Source: a virus
Direction: 5' to 3' (one strand)
DNA: 51,365 nt
Virus record (IMG/VR): IMGVR_UViG_3300048033_000777
Location: 1-51,365 of that record
Each line of letters opens with the position of its first letter. The stretch's first letter is position 1. This document shows positions 32,125-34,475 of this stretch, one piece after another. The notes beneath the pieces were generated by a model. That model saw only the letters and a list, made by a program, of their open reading frames with translations. It ran no database searches and had not been told where the DNA came from. The translations under genes were made by a program, and so were the position numbers.

Positions 32125-32199
32125 TGGAGTGAGCGACAGGACTCGAACCTGCATAAAAAGGATTTGCAATCCTTTGCGTAACCATTCCGCCACGCTCAC
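32125..32199 (-). tRNA. tRNA-Cys (anticodon GCA)
   Basis: A full cloverleaf on the minus strand: acceptor GTGAGCG/CGCTCAC, anticodon loop TTGCAAA, a T-loop GGTTCGAGTCC and U as discriminator, as expected for tRNA-Cys. The CCA end is encoded. It is last of the four-tRNA cluster behind the leader/terminator at 32449-32632. Confidence 0.95.
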
Positions 32200-32203
32200 A
32201 AAA

Positions 32204-32291
32204 TGGCGGAGAGTGTGGGATTCGAACCCACGGTACGTTGCCGTACTCTAGTTTTCAAGACTAGCGCCTTCGACCGCTCGGCCAACTCTCC
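32204..32291 (-). tRNA. tRNA-Ser (anticodon UGA)
   Basis: The minus strand gives acceptor GGAGAGT/ACTCTCC, anticodon loop CTTGAAA, a long variable arm (AGTACGGCAACGTACC) typical of class II serine tRNAs, and an encoded CCA. It reads UCA, which is the first serine codon of the nearby leader peptide. Confidence 0.95.
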
Positions 32292-32297
32292 TATAAA

Positions 32298-32374
32298 TGG
32301 TCGGGGATGCAGGATTCGAACCTGCGACCTCTCGCTCCCAAAGCGAGCGCACTACCAGACTGTGCTAATCCCCG
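32298..32374 (-). tRNA. tRNA-Pro (anticodon UGG)
   Basis: Acceptor CGGGGAT/ATCCCCG, anticodon loop TTTGGGA, T-arm GCAGGTTCGAATCCTGC and encoded CCA on the minus strand. It is directly joined to tRNA-Trp with no spacer. Confidence 0.95.
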
Positions 32375-32448
32375 TGGCATAGGTGGAGGGAGTCGAACCC
32401 CCGCTTGCTGTTTTGGAGACAGCCGTGCTACCATAACACTTCACCCAT
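32375..32448 (-). tRNA. tRNA-Trp (anticodon CCA)
   Basis: Acceptor ATGGGTG/CACCTAT (one G-U), anticodon loop CTCCAAA, T-arm GGGGGTTCGACTCCCTC, G discriminator and encoded CCA. Its 5' end directly follows the T-tract of the terminator at 32449, so it needs read-through to be transcribed. Confidence 0.93.
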
Positions 32449-32485
32449 AAAAAAAGCCCCTAATAAAATTAATTACTAGGGGCTT
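32449..32485 (-). terminator. Intrinsic terminator ahead of the tRNA-Trp cluster
   Basis: The minus strand has stem AAGCCCCTA (32485-32477) with TAGGGGCTT (32462-32454), a 14-base loop and seven T residues ending at 32449. It would stop transcripts one base before the mature 5' end of tRNA-Trp. This is the main clue to an attenuation arrangement. Confidence 0.85.
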
Positions 32486-32495
32486 ATCTTAAATA

Positions 32496-32509
32496 ACTTT
32501 TTAAAAAGT
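32496..32509. repeat. Perfect 14-base palindrome ACTTTTTAAAAAGT
   Basis: A perfect palindrome between the leader stop codon and the terminator stem. It may form a weak AU hairpin in the leader RNA or bind a dimeric protein. No function can be assigned. Confidence 0.4.
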
Positions 32510-32513
32510 CGCG

Positions 32514-32572
32514 TTAAGACATACCCCCTTTCGGTGGACACCACGATAATGATTGTGTTGCATTTGTCTTAA
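32514..32572 (-). other. Inverted repeat framing the leader ORF
   Basis: TTAAGACA (32572-32565, codons 2-4 of the leader) and TGTCTTAA (32521-32514, including its stop) are perfect complements. The second arm can also pair with TTAAGATA at 32492-32485, just before the terminator, with one G-U pair. Inside lies CCACCGAAAGGGGG, a GAAA-capped hairpin with one mismatch. Alternative pairings like these are typical of attenuators, but the fold is inferred by eye. Confidence 0.5.
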
Positions 32573-32576
32573 TCAC
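32514..32576 (-). CDS. Candidate leader peptide (20 aa) with Ser, Trp, Cys and Pro codons
   Basis: The frame starts GTG at 32576 with AAGGA eight bases upstream and ends TAA at 32514. It reads about 20 residues, with QSLSWCPPKGGMS as its second half. Seven of 20 codons encode Ser, Trp, Cys or Pro, the same amino acids as the four tRNAs downstream. It lies between a sigma-70 promoter and an intrinsic terminator, as in classical attenuators. A second frame from an ATG at 32563 lacks a ribosome binding site. Very short ORFs occur by chance, so the coding call is tentative. Confidence 0.5.
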   Translation of the reverse strand: MIKTNATQSLSWCPPKGGMS

Positions 32577-32603
32577 GTTAATATTCCTTTTTAGTATGTT
32601 TAT

Positions 32604-32632
32604 ACTATACTACATTTATTTATCTTTGTCAA
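32604..32632 (-). promoter_or_regulatory. Sigma-70-type promoter of the leader/tRNA unit
   Basis: The minus strand has TTGACA (32632-32627), 17 bases and TATAGT (32609-32604). Transcription would start near 32597, about 20 bases before the GTG of the leader ORF. Confidence 0.75.
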
Positions 32633-32816
32633 CTTTATTTTTAGCATTTTTTTCTGCTTTAGTTAACTTATTATTCCAACTATTGTTACTAATGCCCAGC
32701 TCATTGGGCATTGGTTTTGTTTTTCCTTTAGTAATCTCTCCACCTTTAGCAAGATACTGTGCAACTAAGTCTTCAGTTTCTTTGTCTACAGGTTTCTTAT
32801 CATGATTCATTGACAT
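32616..32816 (-). CDS. Small conserved-type hypothetical (66 aa)
   Basis: Very charged and soluble. The middle, YLAKGGEITKGKTKPMPNEL, followed by GISNNSWNNKLT, resembles small proteins I recall from T4-like cyanophages, whose function is unknown. The ATG follows the stop of the gene at 32821 by four bases with a weak ribosome binding site, suggesting coupling. The 3' end overlaps the -35 box of the leader promoter. Confidence 0.65.
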   Translation of the reverse strand: MSMNHDKKPVDKETEDLVAQYLAKGGEITKGKTKPMPNELGISNNSWNNKLTKAEKNAKNKVDKDK

Positions 32817-33293: not shown

Positions 33294-34364
33294 TTATTGT
33301 ACATTAGACCAGTTATTTAGTATTGAGTTATATTCATTTAATTGTTTATGATATTTTGATTTATAAGGTTCTAATAGCCACGGACACCAATCTTTGTTTA
33401 CAATTTTATCATACACATATTGTATCCTAAGAGCTAGTCGATCGGTTATGCCACCTTTGCGTCTATGTAACGTAATTGAATTATCAAACAAACACAGGTC
33501 GTTATCTCTAGTATACCAATGATCGTATATATATTCCTCTACAAAAAGTGTTTTATTGATATATTCAAATAGCTCAGTTGACTGTTTTTTGGTCATGCCT
33601 TTGACTGAATGAATAGTATTAATACTATAGTGCAATCCTTTTATACCACCCGGGCTTAACGCTACTAAAGGTAACTCGACAGGTTCAGGACACATGTTTC
33701 GATGCATAATGCCGTCTTGAGACTCAAGCAATCCAGGATTAATTCTTCCTGGAGTAAACTGATGTTTTATAATTATTTCGTCAAGTTCGCTTCTAAATGT
33801 CTCAGTTTGATTTTCGTACCAGTTAGCTGTAGTTACAAATCCGGTTGCACTTCCAACTAATCCTTCAACGCCCATTAGACTTACTCCTGGAGAGAAAATT
33901 AAATTTCCAGATTCATTTGAATGCCAAAGAAGTTCTCCTTCATTAAACATTCCTAATGGCGATCCGTCATCCTTTTTTCTTCCAGTGACTTTCATAAGAG
34001 CTGTATCTCTATGTACTATATCCTGTGCAAAAAGATCAAAAAGACTTTGTATATAAGTTCTATCACCAGAATCAACCTTTTTTCCATTGATAAAATTATC
34101 AGTCAAAATTTTAGTAAGTTCGGTATCGGATATATTATATTTTTTCATTAATTTAATATATTCGTTTGCTCGAGGAGTGCCCCACATATGCATTTTTTCT
34201 TCATATTCGTGTGGAGTAACATTAACATCTCTAATTATCGTTACTAACGAGTTTAGATGTACGTCACCTAACATCATCCATTCTTCGTCAGATGCGTTTT
34301 TCATATCGAATTTATCAATGAATACACCGTAATCACCTAAACCAGGAATTTTAGTTATTTGCAA
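33294..34364 (-). CDS. TauD/TfdA-like 2OG dioxygenase-family protein
   Basis: 356 residues from a TTG at 34364, chosen because AAGGA lies about nine bases upstream. The longer frame would start inside tRNA-Gly. The N-terminus, MQITKIPGLGDYGVFIDKFD, and later DNSITLHRRKGGITDRLALR fit the TauD family (distal His and the 2OG-binding Arg). The usual H-x-D reads WHSNESG, so N150 replaces Asp, or E151 substitutes. Catalysis is therefore uncertain. A perfect late promoter is at 34391. Confidence 0.7.
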   Translation of the reverse strand: MQITKIPGLGDYGVFIDKFDMKNASDEEWMMLGDVHLNSLVTIIRDVNVTPHEYEEKMHMWGTPRANEYIKLMKKYNISDTELTKILTDNFINGKKVDSGDRTYIQSLFDLFAQDIVHRDTALMKVTGRKKDDGSPLGMFNEGELLWHSNESGNLIFSPGVSLMGVEGLVGSATGFVTTANWYENQTETFRSELDEIIIKHQFTPGRINPGLLESQDGIMHRNMCPEPVELPLVALSPGGIKGLHYSINTIHSVKGMTKKQSTELFEYINKTLFVEEYIYDHWYTRDNDLCLFDNSITLHRRKGGITDRLALRIQYVYDKIVNKDWCPWLLEPYKSKYHKQLNEYNSILNNWSNVQ

Positions 34365-34390
34365 TTGTTTTTTCCTTTTAGTTATTACGG

Positions 34391-34398
34391 TATTTATA
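34391..34398 (-). promoter_or_regulatory. T4-type late promoter TATAAATA
   Basis: Perfect late consensus on the minus strand, in the 36-base gap between tRNA-Gly and the TTG start at 34364. Confidence 0.7.
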
Positions 34399-34400
34399 AT

Positions 34401-34475
<75 letters not shown>

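Follow-up and report, generated by a model that had tools for sequence, protein, structure and literature searches.

The window analysed here is a viral DNA sequence of 51,365 nt (IMG/VR record IMGVR_UViG_3300048033_000777) whose minus strand carries a unit of four predicted tRNA genes, tRNA-Trp (anticodon CCA, 32375-32448), tRNA-Pro (TGG, 32298-32374), tRNA-Ser (TGA, 32204-32291) and, last of the unit, tRNA-Cys (GCA, 32125-32199). The same four identities, downstream of a terminator, had been given by a first-pass annotation of this DNA. A perfect consensus promoter (32117-32089, minus strand) follows tRNA-Cys and precedes a phosphoesterase gene (32061-31522), and is probably the boundary of the tRNA unit. 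Beside the tRNA region, a stretch at 33294-34433 (minus strand) matches a taurine catabolism dioxygenase family (phrog_24590).

Ahead of tRNA-Trp on the minus strand are a sigma-70-type promoter (TTGACA-17-TATAGT, 11/12 consensus positions, 32632-32604) that overlaps the end of an upstream ORF, a Shine-Dalgarno AAGGA (32589-32585), a 20-codon ORF with a GTG start that encodes the peptide MIKTNATQSLSWCPPKGGMS and then stops (32576-32514), and an intrinsic terminator with a T tract (32485-32449, -19.2 kcal/mol). The terminator stem comprises 13 pairs (32485-32454), and the last base of the T tract, 32449, directly precedes the first base of tRNA-Trp (32448). All of these elements were found where the first-pass annotation had put them. 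Seven of the 20 codons specify Ser (three), Trp, Cys or Pro (two), with the Trp and Cys codons adjacent (32543-32538) at what is predicted to be the main stall site. The earlier statement that the ORF holds the exact set of the four downstream tRNAs is thus true of this rich block and not of the whole ORF, which also encodes Lys, Thr, Asn, Gln, Leu, Gly, Ile, Ala and Met. The leader RNA, which the first-pass annotation had suggested folding, is much more stable than its shuffled versions (-41.9 compared with -26.0 ± 3.45 in 200 shuffles, z -4.6).

The pairing segments are named as in the trp attenuator, from which the 1:2, 2:3 and 3:4 hairpin names come. Segment 1 covers the start codon region (32577-32565); segment 2 runs from a GGGG to just beyond the stop codon (32527-32510) and is common to stem 1:2 and the antiterminator; and segment 3, UUAAGAUAAGCCCC (32492-32479), overlaps the 5' arm of the terminator. 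Both pairings proposed in the first-pass annotation are real, and the important one is longer than it stated, since sequence reading and folding pair GGGGUAUGUCUUAA with UUAAGAUAAGCCCC at 13 of 14 positions. The result is one long hairpin from GGGG (32527) to CCCC (32479), folding at -18.5 kcal/mol, in which the terminator's 5' arm is captured, so that the antiterminator and terminator helices are mutually exclusive by prediction. This predicted antiterminator (32527-32479) would supply what the annotation had lacked, namely how the alternative pairing disables the terminator. The region of the start-to-stop stem folds at -17.3 kcal/mol.

In a model of the window leader with RNA made up to the terminator loop, the antiterminator can form when the ribosome is on Ser9, Ser11, Trp12 or Cys13 and does not form when it is on Pro14 or Pro15, so the two Pro codons of the window, which lie close to the GGGG, are probably weak sensors that contribute little. 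A ribosome placed at the stop codon yields the terminator as the fold of the complete leader. Equilibrium folding of the complete leader favors the terminator, as the structure of lowest energy, at every ribosome position tried (Trp, Cys and Ser included), so the switch must be kinetic, with the antiterminator forming before the 3' arm of the terminator is made. The model without a ribosome also permits the antiterminator at that stage, which makes the untranslated state uncertain.

Related leaders in viral sequences

IMG/VR loci were reached via the phosphoesterase gene behind the tRNAs, and blastn among them with the leader gave 12 with the same leader before tRNA-Trp. Pattern scans gave at least 119 stretches of one leader family (A) and 10 stretches of a second (B); two narrower scans, of 41 and 56 stretches, added a single locus, so few further loci are left for these patterns. 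Removal of identical leaders gave at least 81 distinct leaders including that of the window (75 family A, 6 family B), of which 78 have the start codon in the contig and 71 a complete tRNA operon; the final unique leaders number 63 at the amino-acid level or 64 at the codon level. For one locus (L280) the tRNA set used was that of L028 (nine tRNAs, identical leader), assigned manually because the tRNA-Trp of L280 lies apart from its other tRNAs, and L294 was left out of the analysis.

Leader ORFs of 17-25 codons were found in 78 of the 81 distinct leaders, the remaining three being cut by a contig end. By ARAGORN, tRNA-Trp is the first tRNA, no more than 232 nt behind the leader, in 80 of the 81; for the 81st (L225), cmscan detects a tRNA at that position. 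Run at the gathering score on 20 loci, cmscan found a tRNA at the ARAGORN position in 16 of 19, the exceptions being L280, L176 and L222. The ARAGORN tRNA-Trp of L280 (L280:1387-2232), without cmscan confirmation, stands about 0.8 kb ahead of the other eight tRNAs, and in L028, with the same leader, all nine are together; an insertion near or in the tRNA-Trp of L280 is possible. The leader promoter matches the consensus at 10 or more of 12 positions in 59/63 leaders, with an exact TTGACA in 51/63. Purine-rich motifs precede the start codon in the relatives as well; the start was chosen by them, so they are not independent support. The middle of the peptide is highly variable outside Trp. The terminator routine missed 5 of 64 true cases, and a hairpin and T run are visible in those five sequences.

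Searches elsewhere returned little. The family A pattern had 0 exact matches in bacterial and archaeal species genomes, and a 23-base stretch of the window leader had 0 exact matches in IMG/VR. Against INPHARED, a blastn search with the leader gave no convincing match (best E 4e-3 among the best 20 of 318 records, all partial matches); in a second search 0/529 records cover 80% of the query, and in the best 20 of these the aligned part is only about 67 nt long and falls on an annotated tRNA-Gly; a third search with the leader gave no match. No tRNA is listed in the annotated phosphoesterase regions of phages DSS3_PM1, DSS3_VP1, phiM6 and phiM12.

The outer closure of the antiterminator hairpin is in the lowest-energy fold of 54/56 distinct fragments. 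Among the 43 of 56 fragments in the family A alignment (13 were omitted for length or divergence), 88.3% of antiterminator cells pair, compared with 67.2% at best when the segments are slid; in these 43 rows 0 antiterminator pairs are changed on both sides, and RNAalifold on the family A alignment gave 7 pairs only and did not recover the antiterminator. Within family A, segment 2 pairs with its own segment 3 at -14.3 and with that of other leaders at -14.2. Family B has different segments 2 and 3 that again pair, at -17.5 with their own and -11.3 with family A partners. Covariation of the start codon and the base opposite argues for stem 1:2, with ATG opposite T in 41 leaders and GTG opposite C in 18 (59/59); TGA or TAA stops change together with this pairing, a pattern that may reflect few evolutionary events.

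Leader codons and the downstream tRNA set

A Trp codon is present in all 63 unique complete leader cores, and the tRNA sets downstream vary from Trp alone to the nine of Trp-Ile-Lys-Gln-Cys-Met-Arg-His-Phe in L028, whose leader peptide, MTTQQKHMQKHICIRWFSEGGSC, has a residue for each of these amino acids. The first-pass annotation had proposed looking for such covariation in relatives, and leader codons do covary with the downstream tRNA set, close relatives included. Across 63 loci, 135 of 148 non-Trp tRNA kinds have their own amino acid in the leader core, compared with 98.7 ± 4.2 when sets are permuted (0/10,000 permutations as high). This count does not assign the family A tRNAs with anticodon CAT to Ile2; when they are so assigned, the codon-level match is 137/148.

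Part of the mismatch falls outside the attenuated unit. Sigma-70-like promoters occur in inter-tRNA gaps of 42-50 nt at five loci (L203, L229, L271, L173 and L185) and split the cluster into units; of the six tRNAs behind these internal promoters, four have no matching codon and stand behind their own promoter (L203, L229, L271 and L185) and two are matched (Glu and Arg of L173). With these six excluded and CAT in family A again taken as Ile2, 140/142 non-Trp tRNA kinds of the attenuated units are matched by amino acid (permuted 106 ± 4, 0/5,000) and 135/142 by codon (0/5,000). The two that are unmatched even by amino acid are a tRNA-Ser in L272 and a tRNA-Met in L283, the latter probably an artefact of start choice.

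Agreement extends to the codon for several tRNAs. Leaders before tRNA-Ser (TGA) have TCA or TCG in 13/14 cases and AGY in 0/14, and those before tRNA-Ile (TAT) have ATA in 7/7. For the CAT tRNA, ATA is found in 8/8 family A loci and extra ATG codons in 4/5 of family B; the ATA codons, a criterion chosen post hoc, suggest that the family A CAT tRNA is tRNA-Ile2, and comparison of the CAT tRNAs with three E. coli tRNAs gave no decision between Ile2 and Met. In three cases of tRNA-Gly (TCC) the codon is GGT, a match by amino acid only. The match is one-directional, in that tRNAs nearly always have codons and many codons are present in the absence of a tRNA (among the 63 leaders, Cys is codon-only in 17, Pro in 28 and Ser in 33), and Trp-only operons still carry CWPP in the leader.

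Shared ancestry was controlled for in several ways. When tRNA sets were swapped among similar leaders only, 0/5,000 swaps did as well at a leader distance of 0.25 and 5/5,000 at 0.20. In 32 independent nearest pairs, 29 differences were as expected and 6 against, with 36 ties (sign p 5.8e-5). Two leaders that are 95% identical (L273 and L168) exchange Cys TGT for Gly GGT where tRNA-Cys is exchanged for tRNA-Gly, and in another pair (L226 and L211, 93%) a Ser versus Pro codon coincides with gain of tRNA-Ser. At 41 loci that also have tRNAs upstream of the leader, 61/137 upstream tRNAs are matched (permuted 58.7 ± 3.6, z 0.6), compared with 101/109 of the downstream tRNAs at the same loci (permuted 71.9 ± 4.0, z 7.3).

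The position of the matching codons was measured in 58 of the 59 family A leaders, counting from the GGGG that opens segment 2. The excess of cognate codons spans 40 to 13 nt before the GGGG, with a peak at 22 nt (z 6.6) and a dip at 19 nt (z 1.7), is weak at 10 nt (z 2.1), and disappears at distances of 7 nt or below and of 43 nt or above. A bacterial ribosome has a footprint reaching about 12 nt past the first base of the A-site codon, so 13 nt is the distance at which it just clears the GGGG; one stalled 7 nt or less before the GGGG is predicted to cover this block. In a fold model with that footprint, placing the Trp codon in the A site lets the antiterminator form in 57/58 leaders, and placing the stop codon there does so in 0/58. 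The boundary between 13 and 10 nt in the fold model follows from the footprint put in, and the boundary seen in the covariation does not depend on it. By this covariation in the 58 leaders, the matching codons are sited where a stalled ribosome would free the antiterminator.

Probable attenuation and rival readings

The leader is very probably a ribosome-mediated transcription attenuator that makes the tRNA operon of these marine phages demand-driven, in which stalling, antitermination and read-through are steps that we infer. Promoter and terminator flank a short, presumably translated ORF whose codons are linked to the downstream function; this anatomy, the codon-tRNA covariation and its position come from sequence comparison, and the helices are predicted. 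The first-pass annotation had offered an attenuator as its interpretation, which gains support from the comparison because the codons covary with downstream and not upstream tRNAs.

As RNA polymerase moves through the leader, a ribosome would be translating the small ORF. With charged tRNAs plentiful, the ribosome would reach the stop codon and cover segment 2, the terminator (32485-32454) would form, and transcription would stop just before tRNA-Trp. With a charged tRNA scarce (Trp, Cys, Ser or another of those sensed), the ribosome would stall 13-40 nt before the GGGG (32527), leaving segment 2 free to pair with segment 3 (32527-32479); the 5' arm of the terminator would then be taken, and the polymerase would continue into tRNA-Trp-Pro-Ser-Cys. 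If the leader were not translated, the start-to-stop stem (segments 1:2) could occupy segment 2. As the sensed codons are those read by the tRNAs of the operon, the phage would make its tRNAs when they are short.

Sensing could instead be confined to tRNA-Trp, perhaps with tRNA-Cys, the other matching codons being co-inherited with the tRNA sets. Such a leader would fit the invariant Trp codon (63/63), the place of tRNA-Trp as first tRNA in 80/81 and the existence of single-tRNA operons with the same core, but co-inheritance sits badly with the unmatched upstream tRNAs of the same loci, with the loss of matches when sets are swapped among close relatives, and with the two pairs (Cys to Gly in L273/L168, Ser versus Pro in L226/L211) that change codon alongside tRNA, and we consider it improbable. 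We give much less credence to a terminator that merely insulates the tRNA operon from upstream transcription, with an ORF that is there by chance or encodes a small functional peptide. The overlap of the promoter with the upstream ORF is in its favor, but a terminator between that promoter and the tRNAs would shut off its own operon, the codons covary with the tRNAs in a position-dependent manner, the peptide is highly variable outside Trp, and the terminator routine, which overlooked 5 of 64 true cases, finds no comparable terminator in 151 leaderless upstream regions of tRNA clusters (looser settings find one in 227 upstream regions, leader-bearing ones included). Least credible is the reading in which the short terminated RNA is itself the chief product, acting in trans as a phage sRNA as the Sinorhizobium trpL RNA reportedly does, since the stable fold, promoter and terminator make such a second role conceivable but leave the dependence of the codons on the downstream tRNA set unexplained. 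A noncoding structured RNA as sole explanation was dropped since the peptides covary with the tRNAs.

The attenuator proposed here resembles the trp, his, leu, thr, ilv and pheA attenuators of bacteria in its promoter, short ORF with regulatory codons, terminator and alternative hairpins, and differs from them in its occurrence in phages and in controlling tRNA genes instead of biosynthetic enzymes, with leader codons that match the encoded tRNAs for up to nine amino acids (L028). Rfam leader families do not reach their cut-offs in the window leader (Trp_leader RF00513, 14.5 bits with a gathering cut-off of 41; His_leader RF00514, 28.0 bits with a cut-off of 49). The pheM-pheST operon, in which a leader peptide attenuates an aminoacyl-tRNA synthetase operon, is similar in that a leader peptide regulates tRNA charging capacity, and unlike the phage leader in that its product is an enzyme, one amino acid is concerned and the gene is cellular. 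T-box riboswitches bind uncharged tRNA directly, with no translation, and act by transcription termination; like the phage leader they read the charging of specific tRNAs through termination, whereas the specificity of the phage leader would be carried by a translated ORF. T-box matches were found neither in the window at the gathering cut-off nor in 32440-32650 with E allowed up to 5. The logic of amino-acid operon attenuators is described in the available text of PMC1183508. The design, ribosome-mediated transcription attenuation, is thus known, and its use for a phage tRNA operon with many amino acids at once appears to be new: the first-pass annotation knew of no phage tRNA operon regulated in this way, and among the matches listed from an open-access library (most subscription papers and bioRxiv preprints lie outside it) no paper on attenuation of one was found.

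Phage tRNAs have been proposed as a counter to host tRNA nucleases (PMC10264068), an idea that accounts for the presence of replacement tRNAs in phages; nothing on how phage tRNA genes are controlled was found in the available text of that paper, which has 0 occurrences of "promoter" or "attenuat". More tentatively, and with rather less than even confidence, we suggest that the leader senses tRNA depletion through several channels, in which a host defence nuclease that cuts particular tRNAs, or host tRNAs that lag behind phage demand, would stall the ribosome on the matching leader codon and release replacement tRNAs, so that the leader codons could be read as an inventory of the tRNAs whose loss each phage anticipates, co-evolving with the tRNA cassette. 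A switch worked by stalling at its own cognate codons would mean that, to the phage, these tRNAs count as limiting in the course of infection, and a leader that names them to the codon level would provide a testable connection to codon supply or tRNA nucleases of the host. Ribosome-mediated attenuation, known for amino-acid synthesis, would also gain a role in tRNA supply, and the number of amino acids concerned would rise from one to as many as nine.

Host hints and accompanying elements

The nearest named phosphoesterases are those of DSS3 phages and Sinorhizobium phages (51-58% identity); DSS3 we take to be the strain name of a Roseobacter. One related contig has a tmRNA gene (L268:3537-3895, minus strand) that matches the alpha_tmRNA model, and this, together with the phosphoesterase kinship, hints at an alphaproteobacterial host. 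A tmRNA gene is also present on another phage contig (L216:4929-5274, minus strand), with the tag ANDNYAPEMALAA. Among hallmark genes, Gp23 was found in 0/9 records, with the controls silent too, and terminase in 2/9.

An extra structured element of about 75-110 nt with long terminal inverted repeats lies, in several versions, between the terminator and tRNA-Trp in L256, L270, L277, L185, L190, L216, L220, L247, L282, L226, L241, L173, L230, L243 and L253. The four versions folded have z from -2.9 to -5.9, and the one version searched, that of L256, matched no Rfam family other than tRNA at the cut-off. Glutamine (glnA) riboswitch aptamers (RF01739) lie within about 0.5 kb of tRNA-Trp in L213, L275, L184, L201, L202, L233 and L224.
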